Shown: piece after piece, positions 1,523 through 10,665 of the stretch | Layout: every line of letters begins with the position of its first letter | Position numbering within the stretch: position 1 is the first letter of the stretch | Origin: Wenzhouxiangella sp. | GTDB lineage: Bacteria; Pseudomonadota; Gammaproteobacteria; Xanthomonadales; Wenzhouxiangellaceae | Reading direction: 5' to 3' | DNA length: 11,065 nt | NCBI GenBank assembly: GCA_007127425.1 | Contig: SKZJ01000091.1 | Coordinates: forward strand, 1-11,065 | Program-made: the position numbers and the translations under genes | Notes under the pieces: generated by a model | Database searches by the model: none | Seen by the model: the letters and a program-made list of their open reading frames with translations, nothing else | What the model was told of the DNA's origin: nothing

Positions 1523-3574
1523 TCAATCGGTTGGAAAATAATGCTTCCAGTGTAGCGGAGGACGGTAACCGCGGCTGCTTGCCACGCGTTCCAGCGCCTC
1601 GCTCATACCCCGATCATAGGACAGGCCGAGCCTCTCGCACAAGTGGGTCAGGGTGCGCTCGGTCTCGCCAAGGAGCTCATCCAGGCGGATGTCGATGATG
1701 TCGATCGGCAGCCGTTCACGCAGTCGGTCCAGCACGATTCGGTCCTTCCGCAAGGCCTTGAGCATGGTCGGCACCTGTCGATAGCCGACCAGGCGCCACT
1801 GCATGGCCAGGTAGTTCTCCTCGGCCACCGGATTGATGACCGTGGCACCGGGGAACAGGCGCGCAAGTTGCGCCATGTCGAGCGGCTGCACCGACGCTGA
1901 CTCGACGGGACGCCCCTTGTCGGAGAAATAGCGGGCGTAGCGCCGACGGCTCAGGTGCAGGCGCGATGGATCCGCTCTGCCAAAGCTCTCCACGTTAAGC
2001 GGCAAGGCCAGGTGGAGCTTGCGTTGCGGCCAGTCGGCCAGGGTGAGCACGTCCAGCGACCCGGACCTTGCCAGTGCGGCCAGCAGCAAATCGCGCCCGG
2101 CACACGGCCAGCCCGCAACGAACAGCGGCAGCGAGGCGGCTTCTTGTTCATCTTGCGGCCATGGATACTGCTCGATCGGCGCCAGCGCCTGATCACTGTC
2201 GGTGTCGATACTGAGATAGCTCGGCTCTCCAAGATAAGGAGGTTGCCAGGCCGCGTCCGGGAAAAGCGCGGCGGCCTCATCATGGCGACCGGCCCGGTCG
2301 AGCACGTCCAGCCGCATGGACTGCGTGCGGCCACGGTTGTCCTCGTCCACATCCTTGCGACCGGCGACGTGTTTCAGGTTCCGTTCGGCCAGGTCGTACA
2401 TCTCGGCTTCGCGCAGCAGGCGCGCGATTTCCCAGTGCACGGCCAGTGTCAGCCGGGCATCCTCGAGCAGCGGCTCCAGGGCGGTGGCCAGGGGTTGTGA
2501 CTGCCCCTTGCGTAGATGCATCCGGGCCGCCAGCAAGCGCGCGCGTGTTTGCAGGTCGATGTCTTCGGCTTCAAACAAGCCCGTTGCCAGTTCAAGCGCT
2601 TCGTCAAATTCATCGGAGACTTCGGCCGTCAGCGCGTACAGCCACCTGCGCAGCGGCTCCGGCAGCTCGGTGCCGCGCTCGGCCAACGCCCTGAGCGCGT
2701 CCGCATCGTTGTCTGCGGCATGCAGATCGGCGAGATCGAGTACCAGGTCCCGGTCGGCCAGGGTCGGTGACTCCTCATCGAACACGCGCCGCGCGTCCTG
2801 GATACGTCCCGTGCGCGCCAGGCTCAGTGCCAGCCCACGGGCAACCGCCCGATTGGACAGGCCGAGCTGTCGTGCCTTCTCGAATTGCTCGACCGCCTCG
2901 CGGTGCTTTCCGAACCGCTGCAGCACTTCGCCGGTGACCAGTTGGACGTTCGGATTGCCGGGCTCGTACTCGGCCGCGTTGGCCAGGCAGCGTTCGGCAA
3001 AACTGAACAACCCCTTGGCCACGAATACGCGCGCCATGGCCAACTGCGTCGCGGCGTTCTCCGGGGCCACCTCAAGTGCGTGAGAGGCATGCTCGTTGGC
3101 CGCCTCCGCGTCACCTTGCTCGAGCAGCAGCTCGGCCAGTGAAACCAGGGCGGGCACATGGTCTTCATCTGCGCGCAAGGCGGTCTTCAGACCGGAAATC
3201 GCTTCCTTCGTCCGACCTTCGACATGATCCAGCCGTGAGCGGATGGTCCGGGCTGGCGCATGCCCCGGATTCAGCTCAAGACACTGGTTGAGGTAATCCC
3301 TCGCTTCTGCCGCCTGTCCCCGGCTGAGCAGCAGCCGACCGAGCGCGAAACGGGCATCAACGTGCTGGCGGTTATCCTGGGCCACGCGTTCAAAGCGCGC
3401 AAGCGCATCATCAACCTTGCCCTGCTTCTCATCACACAGAGCCAGCAGGAAATGAAGCTCGGTATCGTTCGGGGATTCGGCCAGCCCTTGCAGGCAAAGC
3501 TCGGTCGCCTTTTCAAAGCGTCCGGATAGGAAGTGCTGCCGAACGCCGTTCAGCACGCTGCTAGGGGATTGCAT
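1523..3574 (-). CDS. TPR protein with a degenerate C-terminal sulfotransferase domain
   Basis: This 683-residue protein has TPR-like helical repeats over about residues 8-440 (for example around 37-100, 140-205 and 206-240). A region of about 200 residues then follows the plan of TPR-linked sulfotransferases. LFVAGWPCAGRDLL at 484-497 sits where the PAPS-binding P-loop (G-x-P-R-S-G-T-T) should be, but the Arg-Ser and Thr-Thr are lost. LFPGATVINPVAEENY at 573-588 replaces the usual 'LFP-A-x-x-I-x-x-x-R-D-P' 3'-phosphate site and lacks its Arg and Asp. RLDELLGETERTL and ERLGLSYD near 630-654 match the conserved late helix. It has no signal peptide, so it is probably cytoplasmic. GGAG seven bases before the ATG supports the start. 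It follows the TonB-operon TPR gene by 58 bp that contain a GC hairpin. It is probably catalytically dead or repurposed as a nucleotide or protein binder; this is inference. Confidence 0.75.
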   Translation of the reverse strand: MQSPSSVLNGVRQHFLSGRFEKATELCLQGLAESPNDTELHFLLALCDEKQGKVDDALARFERVAQDNRQHVDARFALGRLLLSRGQAAEARDYLNQCLELNPGHAPARTIRSRLDHVEGRTKEAISGLKTALRADEDHVPALVSLAELLLEQGDAEAANEHASHALEVAPENAATQLAMARVFVAKGLFSFAERCLANAAEYEPGNPNVQLVTGEVLQRFGKHREAVEQFEKARQLGLSNRAVARGLALSLARTGRIQDARRVFDEESPTLADRDLVLDLADLHAADNDADALRALAERGTELPEPLRRWLYALTAEVSDEFDEALELATGLFEAEDIDLQTRARLLAARMHLRKGQSQPLATALEPLLEDARLTLAVHWEIARLLREAEMYDLAERNLKHVAGRKDVDEDNRGRTQSMRLDVLDRAGRHDEAAALFPDAAWQPPYLGEPSYLSIDTDSDQALAPIEQYPWPQDEQEAASLPLFVAGWPCAGRDLLLAALARSGSLDVLTLADWPQRKLHLALPLNVESFGRADPSRLHLSRRRYARYFSDKGRPVESASVQPLDMAQLARLFPGATVINPVAEENYLAMQWRLVGYRQVPTMLKALRKDRIVLDRLRERLPIDIIDIRLDELLGETERTLTHLCERLGLSYDRGMSEALERVASSRGYRPPLHWKHYFPTD

Positions 3575-3632: not shown

Positions 3633-5072
3633 TCAATCTTCCGCTTCAGGCTCGACCGGCTCTTCCTGGTCCTGCCGCTGAGCCTCGAGCAGGCGACGAC
3701 ACTCGTCGGTGAGGGTTCGTCCGGCAAGCTGGCGCGCGCGACAGGCGGTGACGGCACGTTCTTCAGCAGCCTCGGCCAGTCGCTCCTGCTGCTCCTGTTC
3801 AAGCATGGCCTGGCGGCGCTCGGTGTCATTGATCGCCGTGATGTAGCCACGCCAGTCACGTGCCTGGGCACGGGTGCGCTGGAAGTTCTCGGCCCGCTCG
3901 AAGGCCTCGTCGGCCCGCATCCTCTGGTCACGGTCGCCTGGGCCGGCCTGGTTGAAGCGTGCGTTGCCCAGCAACAACCAGGCTTCCGCGCGATTCTGGT
4001 CGCTCAGGCCACCCTGATTAATTGCTGAGGTAAACGCTTCCTCAGCCGCTTCATTGTTTTCGTCGGCCATCAATGCCTGGCCCAGGCGGAAGAACAGCTG
4101 GCCGTCGTCCGAGAGCTCGGCCGCCTCGCGCAGCACGGGAATGGATTTGCGATGTTCGCGGGCCTGGCTCCAGAGCTGGGAGAGCAGTTCCAGGTGACCC
4201 ACGGAGCGCTCGACCCGGCCCGCTTCGATTTCGCGCTCAAGCAGCTCGGCTCCACGATGTGGATTATTGAAGGTCGAGTAGTACTGAGCCAGCAGCACGA
4301 TATCGCTTTCACTTTCGATCAGCCCGTTGAGGTAAGCCGCCTCCATCGTCGCGAAGGACTTGAACGGCTCGTCCTGCTCGAGGTAGAGCGAGGCCAACTG
4401 CCGCCAGAAGGACAGCTCGTCCGGCCAGAGCGAGATGATTTCCTCCATCAGTTCCGTGCGTTCGGGCACCATGTTGAGGTTCGACAACAACACGTTCTTC
4501 AACTCGTAGTAGCGCCGCTCCGGCTCCGGGGCCTTCTCGATGGCCCGCTCAAGGGGGTCGAGTGCATCCCGGTACTGTTCGAGGTGATAGTTGGCCGCGG
4601 CCACCATGAAATAGGTGCCGTGCGCTACTTCGATACCTTCCTGACCGAGCCATTCCTCGAAGAATTCCAGTGACTCCTCGTACCGTTCGGTCACGAAGAA
4701 AAGCTGGGCAACGTTAAAGCGCAGGCGGTTTTGCTGCTCCTCCGGAAGCACGTCGAGTCGTAACGCATCCCGGAAGTCGCGCAACGCACTTTCCAGGTTA
4801 TCAAGGTTGACATGGGCCGAGCCACGAATCTGCAGTACCGAGGCACGGTCAAAGTCCTTCATGTCGGCACCCCGCCGCTCCATCAGGCGGTTCAGTTCCC
4901 TGAGTGCTGCCTGATGGTCGTCCTCCTCAATCAGCTCGTAGGCCTCCAGCAGGTCACGCGCAACACGCGGATCCAGCGTCTCGGCCCAGGCAATGGAGGC
5001 GGACATGAGAAGCCCCATGCACAGGGCACACAGCACGGCAATTCGTGCCCGTCCGATAGAAAGCAAGTTCAC
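3633..5072 (-). CDS. Secreted TPR protein of the TonB2-type operon
   Basis: GTG start. The frame is open further upstream, but that part overlaps tonB and is not protein-like. The GTG lies one base after the tonB TAG stop and is preceded by GGAGGA, so the two genes are translationally coupled. The product is 479 residues. Residues 1-30 form a signal peptide with likely cleavage at SIAWA-ET. Repeated helical TPR-like pairs run from about residue 35 to 400, including ALRELNRLMERRGADM, ALRDFRDALRLD, ALDPLERAIEKAPE and AAEEAFTSAINQGG. A Glu/Gln/Arg-rich helix near the end carries two Cys residues about 14 apart, and the tail is acidic. A periplasmic TPR protein is the usual last gene of DUF3450/TtpC/ExbB/ExbD/TonB loci. 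Its role is unproven, possibly an adaptor for TonB or the motor. Confidence 0.85.
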   Translation of the reverse strand: MNLLSIGRARIAVLCALCMGLLMSASIAWAETLDPRVARDLLEAYELIEEDDHQAALRELNRLMERRGADMKDFDRASVLQIRGSAHVNLDNLESALRDFRDALRLDVLPEEQQNRLRFNVAQLFFVTERYEESLEFFEEWLGQEGIEVAHGTYFMVAAANYHLEQYRDALDPLERAIEKAPEPERRYYELKNVLLSNLNMVPERTELMEEIISLWPDELSFWRQLASLYLEQDEPFKSFATMEAAYLNGLIESESDIVLLAQYYSTFNNPHRGAELLEREIEAGRVERSVGHLELLSQLWSQAREHRKSIPVLREAAELSDDGQLFFRLGQALMADENNEAAEEAFTSAINQGGLSDQNRAEAWLLLGNARFNQAGPGDRDQRMRADEAFERAENFQRTRAQARDWRGYITAINDTERRQAMLEQEQQERLAEAAEERAVTACRARQLAGRTLTDECRRLLEAQRQDQEEPVEPEAED

Positions 5073-5073
5073 C

Positions 5074-5676
5074 CTATTCCTCCAGGTTGAAGTCGATCGC
5101 GGTGCGGACACCGATTCGCGCTTGCGCGGTCCCGTCGACAACGCGCGGGTTGTAGCGCCAGCGCTGTACCGCCCGCATGGCCGCCCGGTTGAAACACGGG
5201 TTCGTCGTATTGAGTACCCGAGGATCCACCACGTTGCCTTCCGGCGTGACATCGAACTCGACCATGACTGTTTCCACGTCCCGGGCTCGATCAATACACT
5301 GGGTCGGGTACTGCGGCGGAATCCGGACCAGCGGCTGAGCGTCTCGGTCTGGGTCGAATCCGGTACCGATGTCGACATCCACGCCACCGAGGTCAGGCAG
5401 CGCCCCCATCTGAACGTCCATGGCCGGACGGAACGAGGGATCCGAACGCATCGGCGGCGGCGGTGGCGGCTGATCCAGCACCGGGCGCTGGAAATCCTCC
5501 ATACGCTGATCGGCCCGATCTTCGAGCTGCCGGGTGACGTTGATCTCGACCGAATGGTCCTCGTCGAGCTGGACATCCTGGCGCTGGGTAATGACGGTGG
5601 CCAGCAAAAGGAACAGCCCAACCGTGACGATGATGGCCCCGGGGAGCCCGCCTAACAATCTAAGAAGACTACTCAT
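5074..5676 (-). CDS. tonB: TonB-family energy transducer, short TonB2-like form
   Basis: This 200-residue protein has one N-terminal membrane anchor at about residues 10-29. An acidic periplasmic linker includes six consecutive prolines (70-75), and a TonB C-terminal domain spans about 113-198. Domain hallmarks are IPPQYP at 119-124, FDVTPEGNVVDPRVL at 141-155, and AMRAVQRWRYNPRVVDG at 166-182. The anchor has no histidine, unlike E. coli TonB with its functional His20. The linker is short, about 80 residues. Cys127 and Cys161 are the only cysteines and could form a disulfide in the periplasmic domain. TonB carries energy from the ExbB-ExbD motor to outer-membrane receptors. The start overlaps the exbD stop as ATGA, without a strong Shine-Dalgarno, so coupling is expected. 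Family call is firm; the receptor is unknown. Confidence 0.92.
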   Translation of the reverse strand: MSSLLRLLGGLPGAIIVTVGLFLLLATVITQRQDVQLDEDHSVEINVTRQLEDRADQRMEDFQRPVLDQPPPPPPMRSDPSFRPAMDVQMGALPDLGGVDVDIGTGFDPDRDAQPLVRIPPQYPTQCIDRARDVETVMVEFDVTPEGNVVDPRVLNTTNPCFNRAAMRAVQRWRYNPRVVDGTAQARIGVRTAIDFNLEE

Positions 5677-6083
5677 GATTTTCTGATGGAAACGGCAACA
5701 ATGTCATCAACTCCGGCCGCACGAATCTGATCGAGCACCTCGACCAGGTATTCGCTGTGGGCGGAACCGTCGGACTGGATCACGGCGCTGCCGCGCGGGT
5801 TCTCACGGCGCAAGCGCTCGACTGCAGCCCTGACACCCTCAAGGGGCACCTGCTGGCGGTTGATCCAGATCTCGTTGCTGGAATTGATCGCAACCAGGAT
5901 CGACACCAGGCGCTGCTCCTCAGCGGTGTCGGCATCCGGGCGTGCCACCTGAATACCGGGTTCCTTGATGAACGTGGCGGTGACAATGAAGAAAATCAGC
6001 ATGATGAAGACGATATCCAGCAACGGCGTCACATTGACGTCGCCTTCATCACCTGCACCCGACCTTCTGTTTCGTCTAAGCAT
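5673..6083 (-). CDS. exbD: ExbD, free-standing copy of the TonB motor subunit
   Basis: This 136-residue protein has normal ExbD length. A short basic cytoplasmic N-terminus (LRRNRR) leads to VNVTPLLDIVFIMLIFF, which includes the conserved membrane aspartate (Asp23) that takes part in proton-coupled movement in ExbD/TolR. A periplasmic domain fills residues 43-136. It starts 15 bp after the stop of the exbB-exbD fusion, with no recognisable Shine-Dalgarno in an AT-rich spacer, and ends in an ATGA overlap with tonB. Its membrane segment is almost identical to that of the ExbD half of the fusion, while the periplasmic domains differ clearly. The pair therefore looks like an old duplication with specialised periplasmic heads. 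Confidence 0.93.
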   Translation of the reverse strand: MLRRNRRSGAGDEGDVNVTPLLDIVFIMLIFFIVTATFIKEPGIQVARPDADTAEEQRLVSILVAINSSNEIWINRQQVPLEGVRAAVERLRRENPRGSAVIQSDGSAHSEYLVEVLDQIRAAGVDDIVAVSIRKS

Positions 6084-6098: not shown

Positions 6099-7076
6099 TT
6101 ATTGAACAGCGGCTTCCTGGATCGCGATCGCCGGGTCGATACCCGCCTGTCGCGTCTGGTCAAGCACCAGTACAGTTGTTTCGACACGCGCATCCGGGGC
6201 GGCGTTCAATAGAACTACACCATTCGGGTTTTCGGCCCGGAAGGCTTCGACCACCGGCGTCACTGAACGCGGGTCGATCATGCGGGTCTGGTCGACCATC
6301 ACGAAGCCGTCGCTACGAACGCTCAGCATCATGGTGGGCGGTGGCCGTTGCAATTCCTCGGGCGGATCGTCCTGGGGCGTCTGAAGCCCGATGCCAATCT
6401 CGTCAAGAAACGTCGCGGTGACAATGAAGAAGATCAGCAGGATGAACACGATGTCCAGCAGCGGCGTGATGTTGACCTCGGCTTCGTCCATTTCGGACCC
6501 GGTCAACCGACGCGTGGCCCCGTAGGCCATCGCGGCCTCGACATCCAGATCTTCCGCCACTCTCGTGGCGATGTTCTCGTTCTTCCGTTCGAGATAACTG
6601 ATCGAGAAGACGCCGGTCAGCGAGACCGCGAGTCCGGTCATGGTCGGAATGGTTGCACGCGAGATGCCTTCCGCCATCAGGCGGGCGTTCGAGGCGCCCG
6701 TCTCGACGATGACCTGGAAGACCTGGATCATGCCGGTCACGGTACCGAGCAGGCCGAGCAATGGCGTGATCAGGATCAGCGCCTTGATCACGTTCATGTA
6801 GCGCTCGTTCTCGATCCGGACTTCCGAGATCAGCCGTTCGCGATAGGCATAGGATTCCCAGCTCCGGTGATCGCTGACATCCTGCCAGCGACGGTTCTGG
6901 TCCCTGCACATTTTAGGACCAGAGAACCAGAAATACAGCATGCGTTCACTGATCAGCAGCCACATGAGCAAGGTGCTGCACAGCAGGGCGACCACCACCG
7001 GACCGCCGGCATCGAGGTATCCCCCGATGACGTCGATCACGTTGGCTGGGTTGAGCAGTTCCAGAAACACAGTCAT
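6099..7076 (-). CDS. ExbB-ExbD fusion protein (proton channel plus motor subunit in one chain)
   Basis: One uninterrupted frame of 325 residues, counting from the ATG at 7076; a TTG at 7079 is directly before it. TGAGG lies four bases upstream of the ATG. Residues 1 to about 190 are an ExbB/TolQ/MotA-type channel with membrane segments near 24-46, 96-123 (ITPLLGLLGTVTGMIQVF) and 138-165 (TIPTMTGLAVSLTGVFSIS). Residues from about 195 are a complete ExbD: EAEVNITPLLDIVFILLIFF with the key aspartate at 208, then a periplasmic domain to 325. Separate ExbB2 and ExbD proteins are the norm, so the fusion is unusual. An internal ATG (6491) precedes the ExbD part but has no good Shine-Dalgarno. The topology fits: the ExbB C-terminus and ExbD N-terminus are both cytoplasmic. 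It follows ttpC by 22 bp. Confidence 0.9.
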   Translation of the reverse strand: MTVFLELLNPANVIDVIGGYLDAGGPVVVALLCSTLLMWLLISERMLYFWFSGPKMCRDQNRRWQDVSDHRSWESYAYRERLISEVRIENERYMNVIKALILITPLLGLLGTVTGMIQVFQVIVETGASNARLMAEGISRATIPTMTGLAVSLTGVFSISYLERKNENIATRVAEDLDVEAAMAYGATRRLTGSEMDEAEVNITPLLDIVFILLIFFIVTATFLDEIGIGLQTPQDDPPEELQRPPPTMMLSVRSDGFVMVDQTRMIDPRSVTPVVEAFRAENPNGVVLLNAAPDARVETTVLVLDQTRQAGIDPAIAIQEAAVQ

Positions 7077-7098: not shown

Positions 7099-8457
7099 TC
7101 ACTTCCGGTCGCCGGTATCAGCAACGAAGCTGACCGACTGCTCTTCCAGAATCTGCGACAGGCGACGTGATGCACCGGCCGCGAAGGCGTGCAGCAACAG
7201 CAGCGGCACGGCGGCAATCAGGCCCAGCACCGTCGTGATCAGCGCCTGGGAGATACCGCCTGCCATCAGCTTGGGATCACCCGTACCGAACAGCGTGATG
7301 GCCTGGAAGGTGACGATCATACCGATCACCGTACCGAGCAGACCCATCAGCGGAGTAACGGCTGCCAGCACCTTGACCAGGTTGAGGCCGCGTTCGAGTT
7401 TCGGAATCTCCTTGAGCACCGCATCATCGAGATGCAGCTGGAGGGTTTCGAGGTCCTCGTGCTTGTGCTCATTGTACGACGCCATGATCCGACCGAGCGG
7501 GTTGGACTCCGACGGTGTCGAGGACTTCATTTGTGCCCTGACCTGCATGGAGGTGATCATCAGCATGGCCCAGCGGAAGATCGCCAGCAGAATACCGAAG
7601 AACGCCACGACGATAATGGTGTAACCGATCCAGCCGCCCTGGTCGATACGCTCGCGCAACGTCGGGGTCTCGATCACCAGGCCGAGCAGGGTGCCCAGCG
7701 ACGGGTCGACCATGCCGCGAACGACACCGTCACCGTCATAATCGACGACACGCCGGGCAGCACGGACAGCGCCGCCGCCAGGCTGGCGAACCAGGTAACG
7801 CAAGGTGCCATCCTGGGCCACCATGTAGCCACGTTCGGTGAAGGCAGTGAATGGCCCGATGCGAACGACACTCTCATCAACCGAGCGATTATCGGCGCGG
7901 ATCACCGGGGCGTCGTAGCGAACCACCTTGCCCTGCTCGGTCGCTTCCTGGAGCATGGTGAACCACAGCCCCTCGAGTTCGTCGATGGTGGGCAGGGCAC
8001 CTGCCTGCGCCATGCGCGAGAGGTCCTCGCCTCGGCCGGGCAACTGGGTGGAGATCAGCGACTCTTCAAGCTGCTCGTTGAGATCGGCCGCGGCCGCACG
8101 GGCCACACCGAAGAGCTCACCGAACTCACCCTGGCGCTCGGCCAGCTGGTTGCGCAACTCTTCGAGTTCGCGGTCGTTGTCGTTGCGAACACCCTCGAGG
8201 CGGCTGGCTTCCTGTTCGGCGGCTTCCACTTCGTTGCGAACGCGCTGAAGCTCCTGCTCGCGGTTGACTTGTTCCTGGCGGAAGCGTTCTTCACGCTCGC
8301 GGTTGGCCTCGGCCACCTGCTGACGTTCGGTCTGCATGGTGCGCAGCACTTCTTCAAGCGTCTGCGGCTGCGCCATCAAGTTGGGCGAAAAGCCGGCCAG
8401 GGCCAGGACCGAGGCGGCAACGAGCACGGCCAGGCGGTTGGAAATCTTGGAGGTCAT
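7099..8457 (-). CDS. ttpC: TtpC-type ExbB: MotA/TolQ/ExbB proton-channel protein with periplasmic coiled coil
   Basis: From the ATG at 8457 the product is 452 residues. It has a signal peptide (cleavage near NLMA-Q, residue 29) and a Glu/Arg/Gln-rich coiled coil at about 33-110. A periplasmic globular part at about 145-265 includes TIDELEGLWFTMLQE and VRIGPFTAFTERGYMV. The channel domain has membrane segments near 277-298, 361-384 (VTPLMGLLGTVIGMIV) and 402-424. This matches TtpC of Vibrio TonB2 systems, which is needed there together with ExbB2, ExbD2 and TonB2. AGGGA five bases before this ATG supports the start. An in-frame ATG at 8529 overlaps the DUF3450 stop as ATGA and would add 24 residues before the signal peptide; its ribosome site is weak. 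The channel segments resemble those of the downstream ExbB half. Confidence 0.88.
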   Translation of the reverse strand: MTSKISNRLAVLVAASVLALAGFSPNLMAQPQTLEEVLRTMQTERQQVAEANREREERFRQEQVNREQELQRVRNEVEAAEQEASRLEGVRNDNDRELEELRNQLAERQGEFGELFGVARAAAADLNEQLEESLISTQLPGRGEDLSRMAQAGALPTIDELEGLWFTMLQEATEQGKVVRYDAPVIRADNRSVDESVVRIGPFTAFTERGYMVAQDGTLRYLVRQPGGGAVRAARRVVDYDGDGVVRGMVDPSLGTLLGLVIETPTLRERIDQGGWIGYTIIVVAFFGILLAIFRWAMLMITSMQVRAQMKSSTPSESNPLGRIMASYNEHKHEDLETLQLHLDDAVLKEIPKLERGLNLVKVLAAVTPLMGLLGTVIGMIVTFQAITLFGTGDPKLMAGGISQALITTVLGLIAAVPLLLLHAFAAGASRRLSQILEEQSVSFVADTGDRK

Positions 8458-8525
8458 AGTTTCCCTGCCATCGGATGGTTGATTCATGTTCATGGCGATT
8501 GAGTTCATCTTCCGTTCCACCCCTG

Positions 8526-9317
8526 TCATTCTGCGTCACGCGGCGCGGTGGTCGGAATGTACATGAAGTCCGGCGGAATCTGCTCGCGAGCAATACGGGA
8601 ACCGGTCTTGAGGTCGGGCAGGAAGGAGGAATCCAGATCCACCCAGCTACTCGTCTGCGTGTCGAAGCGCTTGAGCACTTCGTCATCGTCCGTGCGGAAG
8701 GTGAGAGAGACACGACCGATCCGCAGGAACTCCACGTTCTCGTACAGGCGACCGTCGACCTCGATGTCGCCACGGTAGGCTTCAATGGTGCGGCCGTACT
8801 CGTTCTCGATCTGGTAGGCCTCGACCACCATGCGATAGCGCTGGGCCGGTGAACGCGAGGGATCGTCCATGGCGTTTTCCAGTCTCTGGACGCGTTCGCG
8901 CCGCTCTTCCAGCAGGAAGGGCACGTCCGCCTCGACCAGCCGGGCAAGGCCATCGACCATGTCTTCCATCAGCGGCTGCACGGCACGCTGCAAGGCCGCG
9001 ATATTGTCGATGTCGCTGCGCAGCGAATCGATTTCGCGCTCCTGCGACTCGACCTGGCGGCGCTGGGACTGGTTGTAGCGCGTGAGCTGCTCGAGCTGGT
9101 TGAGGTTGGCGCGGTAGTCACCCAGCAGTTGCTGGGTGCGCTCATCGATGTCATCGATGCGCTCCTGCGACTGGCGGGTGCCTTCCTGAGCCTGGCGGCT
9201 GGTTTCGAGCACCGGCTCGATTTCCTGCGTGTAAACGCTGAAGCTCGCCATCAGGAACAGGCCGCCGGCGAAAGTGGCGCAGAGGCCGAAAACTTGTCTA
9301 TTGGTCAGTATCTTCAT
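8526..9317 (-). CDS. DUF3450 family periplasmic coiled-coil protein
   Basis: The product is 263 residues, the usual DUF3450 size. An N-terminal hydrophobic segment at about 8-29 acts as a signal peptide or anchor. A long coiled coil rich in Gln/Glu/Arg runs over about 33-115. The family core follows: DVPFLLEERRERVQRLE at 131-147, then VVEAYQIENEYGRTIEAYRG at 164-183, and a beta-rich end with FLRIGRVSLTFRT (197-209) and SSWVDLDSSF (223-232). DUF3450 genes regularly lead TtpC/ExbB/ExbD/TonB operons, as here; their molecular function is not established. The frame is open to 9389, but the extra 24 residues lack a ribosome site and would sit before the hydrophobic segment, so the ATG at 9317 is preferred, though its own Shine-Dalgarno is weak. 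Its stop overlaps an upstream in-frame ATG of ttpC. Confidence 0.88.
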   Translation of the reverse strand: MKILTNRQVFGLCATFAGGLFLMASFSVYTQEIEPVLETSRQAQEGTRQSQERIDDIDERTQQLLGDYRANLNQLEQLTRYNQSQRRQVESQEREIDSLRSDIDNIAALQRAVQPLMEDMVDGLARLVEADVPFLLEERRERVQRLENAMDDPSRSPAQRYRMVVEAYQIENEYGRTIEAYRGDIEVDGRLYENVEFLRIGRVSLTFRTDDDEVLKRFDTQTSSWVDLDSSFLPDLKTGSRIAREQIPPDFMYIPTTAPRDAE

Positions 9318-9582
9318 GCCCAGTTCATCACGTGTTTTGGATTGGGTAACTCGTCGGCGACCCATGCGGGAGGCCGGAAAGGCACACATTCTACGCAGTT
9401 CTCATCCGCCAACGCAAGCGCCATTCCGTTGACATGTATCACGGAACCACAGCCTGTTTTGGGGAATCAAAGGAAAACAACCGGTTCCGATGGGATGGAC
9501 CGGCAGGGATCACGACACAATCCCCTGGCGCGGACGTCGGCAACAACAATCGCTGCGTGCCACTTGTCACGGACGGAGACGG
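9318..9582. other. Divergent intergenic region (265 bp)
   Basis: It separates the minus-strand operon from the plus-strand transglutaminase-TPR gene and holds the promoter noted at 9388-9417. For the plus gene there is a perfect TTGACA at 9429-9434, but no fair -10 at 16-18 bp. A possible leader hairpin lies at 9504-9527 (CAGGGAT with ATCCCCTG, one bulged base, 9-base loop). I see no Fur box, riboswitch or small gene in it. Confidence 0.6.
9388..9417 (-). promoter_or_regulatory. Candidate sigma70 promoter for the DUF3450-TonB operon
   Basis: On the minus strand, TTGCGT (9412-9417) and TAGAAT (9388-9393) are separated by 18 bp. Each differs from consensus by two and one bases respectively. 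The expected start point is about 65 bases upstream of the DUF3450 ATG. It is the best match I found in the 265-bp divergent region. No AT-rich Fur-like 19-mer overlaps it. Confidence 0.5.
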
Positions 9583-10665
9583 ATGAAAATATTACTTGGA
9601 TCAACACTGGCATTGGGTCTATCGGGCGACATGGCACCGCCCGATCCCGATGAAGTCATGAGACTCCCCGAAGCGGTGATCGAACAAATCGACGAGCACG
9701 TCTACCGGGGCAGCAACAATCCCGATCGGCGTCTCGAACTGCTGGCCCGATTGATGTTTTCAAGTGGCGGCATGGGCTTCAGCTACATTGTTGAACCGAC
9801 GCGAGACGCAGCCGGAGCATTCGATGCCGGCGAAGGCAACTGCCTGTCATTTACCCTGCTGTTCCTGGCCATGGCCGACCATGTGGGCCTTCGTGCCACT
9901 CCGCGCGAGGTGCAGGTGCCGCTCAGCTGGCGACGGGACGGCAGCTCGCTTTACGAAACCGGCCACGTCAACGTGCTGGTGGAGACCGGGACACGGCGTG
10001 CGGTCGTCGACTTCGAGCCGGACCCGATCCGGTCTCACCGCCTGTCGACGACACGGCGGGCGCAACGCATCAGCCGCGAGCGTGTGCTCGCGCACTTCTA
10101 CAACAACCGGGCCGCCGAGTTGCTGGCCGCGGGCCATGCCGATGCAGCGCGCCAGTGGAGCAAAATCGCACTTCAACTCGCACCGGAGTTTTCCGCGGCA
10201 CTCAACAACCGGGGCGTGATCGAAAGCCGGCTCGGTGAGTTCGAGAACGCGCTCGGTTACTACCAGGAGGCGCTGAAGGTGGATACGGATAACAGCAGCA
10301 CCCTGTTCAATCTTTATGAACTCTACAGGCGCACCGGCGAGCACGTCGAGGCCCGGCAGGTCCTGGATCGGCTCGAGGGGCTGCGATCACGCGACCCGTA
10401 CCTGCATTGGTCGCTGGCCCGCAGATTCGAGGATCTGGGCGAACTGGAGCGTGCCGACCGACTTTACCGGCGCGCGATCGGACTAAGGGACGAAGAACCG
10501 CTGTTCCACGCCGGCCTGGCACGCGTCGCCGAGGCCTTGGGCGACCGGGAACGCGCCGAGCAGTCGCTGGCCCGGGCGATGGAACTCAATCGCCGCAGCC
10601 CGGAAACAGGCTTTCAATGGGACAACACTTTGCTTGCCCTCAAGGCCGGACTGACCGAACACTGA
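9583..10665 (+). CDS. Transglutaminase-like protein with C-terminal TPR repeats
   Basis: The product is 360 residues from the ATG at 9583, supported by GGAG four bases upstream; the frame is open to 9490 but the added residues look like leader, not protein. The N-terminus (MKILLGSTLALGLSG) may be a short signal peptide, without a clear cleavage motif. The transglutaminase-fold core has a candidate triad: Cys87 in AGEGNCLSFTLLF, His128 in ETGHVNVLVE, and Asp143 in VVDFEPD. That order and spacing match the superfamily. From about residue 168, four or five TPR pairs follow: ANNRAAELLAAG-like, FSAALNNRGVIESRLGEFE, LFNLYELYRRTGEHVEA, LHWSLARRFEDLGELERA and FHAGLARVAEALGDRERA. It may be a peptidase or a cross-linking or scaffold protein, probably in the envelope; the substrate is unknown. 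It is divergent from the TonB operon and may be unrelated to it. Confidence 0.8.
   Translation: MKILLGSTLALGLSGDMAPPDPDEVMRLPEAVIEQIDEHVYRGSNNPDRRLELLARLMFSSGGMGFSYIVEPTRDAAGAFDAGEGNCLSFTLLFLAMADHVGLRATPREVQVPLSWRRDGSSLYETGHVNVLVETGTRRAVVDFEPDPIRSHRLSTTRRAQRISRERVLAHFYNNRAAELLAAGHADAARQWSKIALQLAPEFSAALNNRGVIESRLGEFENALGYYQEALKVDTDNSSTLFNLYELYRRTGEHVEARQVLDRLEGLRSRDPYLHWSLARRFEDLGELERADRLYRRAIGLRDEEPLFHAGLARVAEALGDRERAEQSLARAMELNRRSPETGFQWDNTLLALKAGLTEH

Follow-up and report, generated by a model that had tools for sequence, protein, structure and literature searches.

The ExbB-ExbD, TolQ-TolR and MotA-MotB motors are described as five channel subunits around two axle helices, mostly in a 5:2 arrangement (PMC12905483; this and the other papers cited here are quoted from the parts of their texts that were available). 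The ratio of ExbB to ExbD was long disputed, with 4:2, 5:1, 6:3 and 5:2 all put forward (PMC12215075). In the E. coli ExbB-ExbD and TolQ-TolR motors (PDB 6TYI, 9DDO, 9DDM and others), channel and axle proteins are separate chains, a single type of channel subunit is used and ExbB is longer, unlike in the motor described below. The channel and axle domains are nevertheless homologous, and the key threonine and aspartate residues are shared.

The TonB2 system of Vibrio vulnificus and V. anguillarum (TtpB-TtpC-ExbB2-ExbD2-TonB2-TtpD) has two kinds of channel subunit, TtpC and ExbB2. The V. vulnificus operon begins with ttpB and ends with ttpD, with ttpC, exbB2, exbD2 and tonB2 in between (PMC6957404), and an operon of Vibrio maritimus (L095) follows the Vibrio TonB2 layout. 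In the literature consulted, as far as the texts were available, we found no description of the make-up of such TtpC-type motors with their two kinds of channel subunit.

Here we analysed a stretch of 11,065 nucleotides from Wenzhouxiangella sp., referred to as the window. It carries an operon with the gene order and the two kinds of channel subunit of the Vibrio TonB2 system. Whereas the Vibrio operons encode one ExbD, separate from ExbB2, the operon in the window joins ExbB2 to a further ExbD (ExbD1). Two motor parts for nutrient uptake that are normally separate are joined in one chain in this salt-loving bacterial group, and the join is real and conserved. No account of an ExbB-ExbD fusion came up in a literature search that left most subscription papers and preprints out of reach; other fusions, TolB-Pal and PorE, are mentioned in the available part of a 2025 paper on periplasmic force transducers. 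The database name of one homologue (P0040), 'ExbB/TolQ/biopolymer transport protein ExbD', indicates that annotation has already met the fused architecture.

One frame encodes ExbB2 and ExbD1 within a TonB2-type operon

ExbB and ExbD are usually separate proteins in TonB2 systems. In the window, a single frame without internal stop codons runs from its ATG at 7076 to its stop at 6099 on the minus strand and encodes both. Pfam matches above the cut-off cover residues 78-173 (MotA_ExbB, PF01618, 6.3e-20) and 197-314 (ExbD, PF02472, 6.9e-21) of the 325 aa product, which bears out a preliminary description of this DNA as holding one frame with ExbB segments followed by a full ExbD. Scores against the NCBIfam models of the canonical proteins lie far below the cut-offs, at 27.5 against 206.2 bits for ExbB (TIGR02797) and 33.4 against 152.95 bits for ExbD (TIGR02803). 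A single-chain AlphaFold2 model (119-row alignment, mean pLDDT 76, pTM 0.46) predicts long helices at residues 10-66, 73-91, 94-126 and 131-176, an unstructured link at 177-203 with pLDDT below 50 at 181-199, the ExbD membrane helix at 204-227 and the periplasmic ExbD fold at 248-319.

Table 1 Features of the fused TonB2-type operon in the window, with the evidence for each.
Feature	Positions	Strand	Evidence and remarks
DUF3450 protein, TtpB-like	8526..9389	-	Pfam PF11932; position of ttpB, first in the V. vulnificus operon; true start may be ATG 9317
TtpC-like channel subunit with N-terminal periplasmic part	7099..8529	-	PF01618 at residues 343-462 of 476; Pro190 kept; true start may be ATG 8457
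ExbB2-ExbD1 fusion gene	6099..7076	-	325 aa; single frame, both Pfam domains above cut-off
ExbB half, residues 1-176	6549..7076	-	Pfam PF01618 and AlphaFold2 helices
Linker, residues 177-203	6468..6548	-	Unstructured in the model; contains the former ExbD1 N-terminus (RRLTG...AEVN)
Ancestral ExbD1 start-codon site, residues 187-188, now GCC ACG	6513..6518	-	Comparison with standalone ExbD1
Internal ATG, Met196, non-conserved	6489..6491	-	Counts of Met near the ExbD motif
ExbD1 membrane helix, residues 204-227	6396..6467	-	Model; conserved Asp208, codon 6453-6455
ExbD1 periplasmic domain, residues 248-319	6120..6335	-	Model and Pfam PF02472
Free ExbD (ExbD2)	5673..6083	-	Pfam PF02472; groups with the ExbD2 proteins of unfused operons, 100/100
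TonB	5074..5676	-	Pfam TonB_C above cut-off
TPR protein, TtpD-like	3633..5060, start approximate	-	Pfam TPR; position of ttpD in V. vulnificus TonB2 and relatives

The operon lies on one strand in the order ttpB-ttpC-[exbB-exbD]-exbD-tonB-ttpD, with all six gene types of the TonB2-type layout in sequence and an extra ExbD domain on exbB. As in TtpC, the MotA/ExbB channel domain of the upstream protein follows a long N-terminal part; the membrane aspartate is present in both ExbDs and TonB carries the TonB_C domain. Pfam searches of the neighbours upheld the claim in the preliminary description of a TonB2-type operon with a TtpC channel subunit, a free ExbD and TonB; the DUF3450 (TtpB-like) and TPR (TtpD-like) genes, which it had left unnamed, complete the six-gene layout. 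To judge from its family, the operon would drive TonB-dependent uptake.

Downstream of the operon, a further TPR gene occupies 1523-3574 on the minus strand, with a homologue in the same place in four of seven longer loci (L035, L164, L165, L166). Its second half looks sulfotransferase-like; Pfam gave no such match. On the other side, a divergent TPR protein is encoded at 9490-10665 on the plus strand, for which Pfam reports TPR only and whose first half, on our reading of the sequence, presumably has a cysteine-protease or transglutaminase-like character. In Wenzhouxiangella sp. AB-CW3, all three subunits of the TonB complex are reported as expressed, the genes being unspecified in the text available, and the proteome of this strain is deposited as PRIDE PXD021036 (PMC7691419). 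The available part of one review gives TtpC as homologous to TolR (PMC5524678); the TtpC-like protein at 7099-8529 matches the TolQ/ExbB family.

The fusion is conserved in the family

An error had to be excluded because the window's genome (2.08 Mb) consists of 333 contigs and is 65% complete. We therefore examined 43 genomes of the window's family, assigning an ExbB to the window's kind at 60% identity or more to a probe (P0115). Such an ExbB is present in 26 of the 43, and the junction is read through in 25 of these 26. The ExbB lies in a frame of 321-361 aa in 24 of the 26; in G006, counted among the 25, 56 residues of ExbD are read before the contig ends, and in the 26th genome (G012) the fusion locus is split by contig ends. 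In 15 of the 17 remaining genomes, the only ExbB is more distant (39-46% identity) and lies in frames of 189-211 aa, which are too short for a fusion; the other two gave no ExbB match at the limit used. One family genome (G026) has an unfused system only. A stop inside the match in G029 was dismissed, the fused frame of 323 codons being intact there, and G051 was rejected as a second fusion, its exbB and exbD being separate.

The fragmentation and incompleteness of the window's assembly are what would speak for a sequencing or assembly artefact of an incomplete metagenome-assembled genome. Against this, 24 other family genomes and more than 100 protein clusters have the same frame, and in G019, one of the 25 read-through genomes, it lies on a single contig of 3,844,697 nt. 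The chance of an artefact is thus practically nil. The preliminary description had proposed a search for the same fusion in related genomes, which succeeded in 25 of the 26 family genomes with the window's kind of ExbB, and had named a sequencing error, or separate genes in all close relatives, as grounds for giving the fusion up; the recurrence of the frame in 24 other family genomes and the 25 junctions read through dispose of both.

Of the 120 homologues listed out of 1,346 database matches, 110 have both Pfam domains, a count that includes the cluster of the query itself, and the close ones are named Wenzhouxiangella or Wenzhouxiangellaceae. The ExbD motif [ND]ITPLLD is present in all 108 fusions examined among these 120; one of 109 fusions, the partial P0107, was left out of the counts of motif and methionine. 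One scan of genome contigs yielded no loci from the group to which the window belongs.

We rejected the possibility that G019 relies on the fused motor alone, since this genome also encodes TolQ/TolR, a further pair of ExbB/ExbD proteins and a second TonB. The neighbours of these other Ton/Tol genes, named by reading the sequence, are presumably msbA, lpxK and MotA.

Fused and free ExbD belong to separate lineages

The closest unfused operons with DNA context are TonB2-type operons with two ExbD genes, ttpC-exbB-exbD1-exbD2-tonB, which are colinear with the window's and differ from it in having exbB and exbD1 as separate genes. They were found in L066 (Parvularculaceae), L071 (Alphaproteobacteria) and L146, L153, L167-L186 (one order), the last group being treated as alphaproteobacterial on the strength of ExbBs that branch with those of L066 and L071. 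The TtpC proteins of these operons match the window's TtpC at 390-512 bits, against mostly 250-370 for the gammaproteobacterial loci compared, and their TonB proteins, a few of them truncated where the locus stops, match at 118-225 bits, compared with mostly 30-100.

In a tree of 67 rows, the fused ExbDs, standalone ExbD1 proteins and the first ExbD of the unfused operons form one clade (100/100), and the free ExbD and the second ExbD of the unfused operons form the other (100/100). These two clades identify the fused ExbD as ExbD1 and the free ExbD as ExbD2, each orthologous to its counterpart in the unfused operons. By this phylogeny, fused and free ExbD represent separate lineages, which also occur side by side and unfused in other operons, and the former is no stray duplicate of the latter. 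One protein first considered a standalone ExbD1 (P0121) was discarded, as it falls among the fused ExbDs in the tree and is likely to be a piece of a fusion protein. The fusion is followed by a free ExbD in 24 of 25 loci, and the exception stops at a contig end. In the unfused operons, the spacing of exbB and exbD1 ranges from a short overlap to about 20 bases (plus-strand loci only). These comparisons support an origin of the fusion by in-frame joining of the closely spaced exbB and exbD1 of such an operon.

Further TonB2-type operons with a second ExbD were seen in L069, L070, L073, L081, L083, L085, L091, L092, L113, L135, L142 and L149-L152, with apparently more than one kind of two-ExbD layout. 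L102 and L115 hold tandem TtpB-TtpC clusters, the second DUF3450-TtpC pair beginning at or after the TPR gene of the first operon. In L133, three consecutive TonB-domain genes, one with three TonB-like stretches, follow a TonB2-type ExbD. L128 is a TonB2-type operon in a record titled Flavobacteriaceae; its ExbB groups with one from Porticoccaceae, possibly reflecting contamination of the metagenome-assembled genome.

The ancestral ExbD1 start is lost and the linker is under selection

Near the window's clade, standalone ExbD1 proteins (some carry the names Salinisphaera sp. PC39 or Polycyclovorans sp.) mostly begin with M(K/R/T)RRL or MRRL and lead into AEVNITPLLD or AEVDITPLLD (20 proteins read). 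The fused linker retains the RRL...AEVNITPLLD of this N-terminus, and none of 25 fused loci has an ATG, GTG or TTG at the possible old start places. At the fusion locus of G019, the tryptic peptide MAEELDVEAAMAYGATR spans the ExbB tail into the former ExbD1 start.

Between five near relatives, dN/dS was 0.105 for the ExbB half, 0.100 for residues 171-198, 0 for the ExbD membrane helix and 0.062 for the periplasmic part; for 38 pairs above 80% identity, the values for the same four regions were 0.096, 0.095, 0.009 and 0.067, all of them rough, as synonymous sites are near saturation. The stretch of residues 171-198 measures 28 codons in 23 of 25 fused loci and 30 in the other two, and the linker is more variable in sequence than the domains. 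Because the ancestral start site is lost and the linker is under selection, the fusion protein most likely stays one chain.

Two alternatives would supply free ExbD1 from the fused gene. In the first, one chain is translated and then cleaved within the cytoplasmic linker, releasing ExbB2 and ExbD1 to assemble in the manner of the unfused relatives. The link is unstructured in the AlphaFold2 model, cytoplasmic by the known topology and more variable than the domains; however, purifying selection acts on it as on the ExbB half and its length hardly varies, and we regard cleavage as unlikely.

In the second, which the preliminary description had placed at the ATG at 6491, internal initiation yields extra free ExbD1. 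Here 23 of 25 fused loci do have an in-frame ATG, GTG or TTG somewhere within the 23 codons leading to the ExbD motif, and an ATG is common at the place of Met183. That place holds leucine in other fused loci, however, and Met196 is not conserved, a methionine within 12 residues before the motif being present in 23 of 108 fusion proteins; the ancestral start, as noted, is gone from all 25 loci. The Shine-Dalgarno core is matched by 3 bases at ATG 6491 and 4 at the start of the fusion, a weak argument, since the annotated starts of the free exbD and of tonB have no match at all. Initiation at 6491 has thus become less well supported, and internal initiation as a whole is very improbable, though start-like codons do occur elsewhere before the motif.

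Related fusions occur in separate parts of the ExbB tree

Trees were built from 110, 38, 100, 151 and 67 rows. Other fusions (P0108/P0109; P0119 with P0240-P0245; P0249, P0251, P0253, P0254, P0256, P0260 and P0263) have, as here, an ExbD behind an ExbB2-type subunit in a single chain, and occupy places on the ExbB tree separate from the Wenzhouxiangella-type fusions, which points to independent fusions or later fission. Standalone ExbBs lie between P0108/P0109 and the Wenzhouxiangella-type fusions, and a single origin of these two groups was rejected in a 38-row tree, where one clade for all 17 fusions gave a p-AU of 0.0055, with P0109 a long branch. The best 120 matches of P0119 contained 17 more fusion clusters (P0240-P0247, P0249, P0250, P0251, P0253, P0254, P0256, P0258, P0260 and P0263). 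On a quick tree of 100 rows, the fused state required 8 changes, of which starred branches force 5 or more, with gains indistinguishable from losses; several of these fusions come from single metagenomic contigs and long branches are present. Two fusions in that tree were not relied on, namely P0250, which contains a frameshifted-looking stretch, and P0258, which has a very long branch. From these trees, at least two independent fusions in TonB2-type ExbB genes are likely; fusion followed by later fission may take the place of independent origins.

In the fusion clade of P0119 and P0240-P0245, the ExbD falls outside the ExbD1 clade of the 67-row tree. P0241 had no close relative in 198 gammaproteobacterial genomes, and P0119's own clade was absent from the matches listed for 398 genomes of the window's order, empty results that show little in such samples. 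With the ExbD of this clade placed elsewhere and its operon context not found, a free second ExbD may not be needed everywhere. For P0254, 289 genomes of the class of G1115 yielded no fused relative, a result that likewise shows little, with just 6 matches in which stops separate the domains.

Another type of join is seen in P0265 (329 aa), encoded on a single metagenomic contig of 18.7 kb, a single chain in which residues 2-150 form a TtpC channel domain and residues 169-326 an ExbB2. It is possibly a natural TtpC-ExbB2 fusion and, as a single case, would fit TtpC and ExbB2 as neighbours.

Pore signatures differ between TtpC and ExbB2

Pore positions were compared in E. coli ExbB numbering. 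Twenty-seven loci were left out as duplicates or unrelated, including L146 and L153 (both from G1115, a genome left uncounted); at least two same-genome pairs, L032/L038 and L044/L058, were retained, and L027, at a contig end, was unclassed, giving 155 of 156 ExbB2 loci with a class. TtpC has Thr180, Thr181 and Pro190 in all 152 rows. ExbB2, fused or not, has Pro180 in 154 of 155 loci, and at position 190 serine or threonine in 149 and proline in one. The pore residues Thr148 and Thr181 and the axle aspartate are present in all 25 fused loci, as is an arginine or lysine at the place of Glu176; the membrane aspartate is kept in all 218 ExbD rows, fused and free. The differing signatures of TtpC and ExbB2 fit unequal roles in a mixed ring.

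Position 176 was considered as further evidence for a shared ring. In the raw table of 153 TtpC-ExbB2 pairs, a glutamate in TtpC goes with lysine or arginine in ExbB2 in 30 of 31 cases. This charge pairing was rejected as evidence, the kinship-aware median p being 1 on the 151-row tree, where the comparison comes down to 4 and 12 independent pairs only. As the covariation is unsupported once kinship is allowed for, the composition of the ring is something we infer.

Following from the 5:2 structures, it is a reasonable expectation that a 1:1 fusion would be unable to pack all its ExbD helices in one pore. A homomeric ring of five fusions would place two ExbD1 helices in the pore and three outside, or adopt another stoichiometry, with TtpC and ExbD2 in a separate ring or an accessory layer. 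The 27-residue unstructured link would let the unused helices lie outside, and ExbB2 keeps Pro141 and Thr148 in 155 of 155 loci and Thr181 in 154. Ratios of 5:1 and 6:3 have been reported for E. coli ExbB-ExbD, and are judged in the text available to stem probably from the conditions used or from truncation of the subunits (PMC12905483). A surplus of three ExbD helices in each ring would, however, be without parallel in the 5:2 motors, Pro190, described as a conserved kink in ExbB (PMC12215075), is missing in 154 of 155 ExbB2 loci, and TtpC is given as indispensable in the TonB2 system of Vibrio anguillarum in the available part of a review (PMC5524678). The homomeric ring is accordingly doubtful.

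Discussion

Beyond the preliminary description, our comparisons identify the fusion as exbB joined to exbD1 and the free ExbD as ExbD2, with the ExbD1 start lost in all 25 fused loci, and indicate that such fusions in TonB2-type operons probably arose more than once.

For the working motor, a mixed ring of TtpC and fusion is the best idea; its composition, the pairing of the helices and the drive of TonB are inferred. In this model, the ring of five would consist mainly of TtpC, with the short ExbB2 half of the fusion in one or two places. The unstructured link of about 27 residues, ample in length by ordinary peptide geometry, would let the ExbD1 helix into the pore, where it would pair with the free ExbD2, or with a second ExbD1, to form a two-helix axle that drives TonB. 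The simplest motors without surplus helices would be a mostly-TtpC ring that contains either one fusion plus one ExbD2 or a pair of fusions. Taken whole, the explanation that the fusion arose by an in-frame join of exbB2 and exbD1, stays one chain and serves as the minority subunit of a five-membered ring made mainly of TtpC has about an even chance of being right.

A stricter form can be put forward tentatively, and we hold it to be possible without expecting it: a fixed hetero-pentamer of one ExbB2-ExbD1, four TtpC and one ExbD2, with one marked subunit and an axle of two different helices. If such fusions arose repeatedly and independently, one ExbB2 per ring would then be the rule in TtpC-type motors, and these would be asymmetric by design.

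Because each ExbB comes linked to a single ExbD in a natural fusion, the stoichiometry of the motor becomes directly testable. The size of the native protein, together with a count of the TtpC, fusion and ExbD2 chains in each complex, would answer the stoichiometry question.
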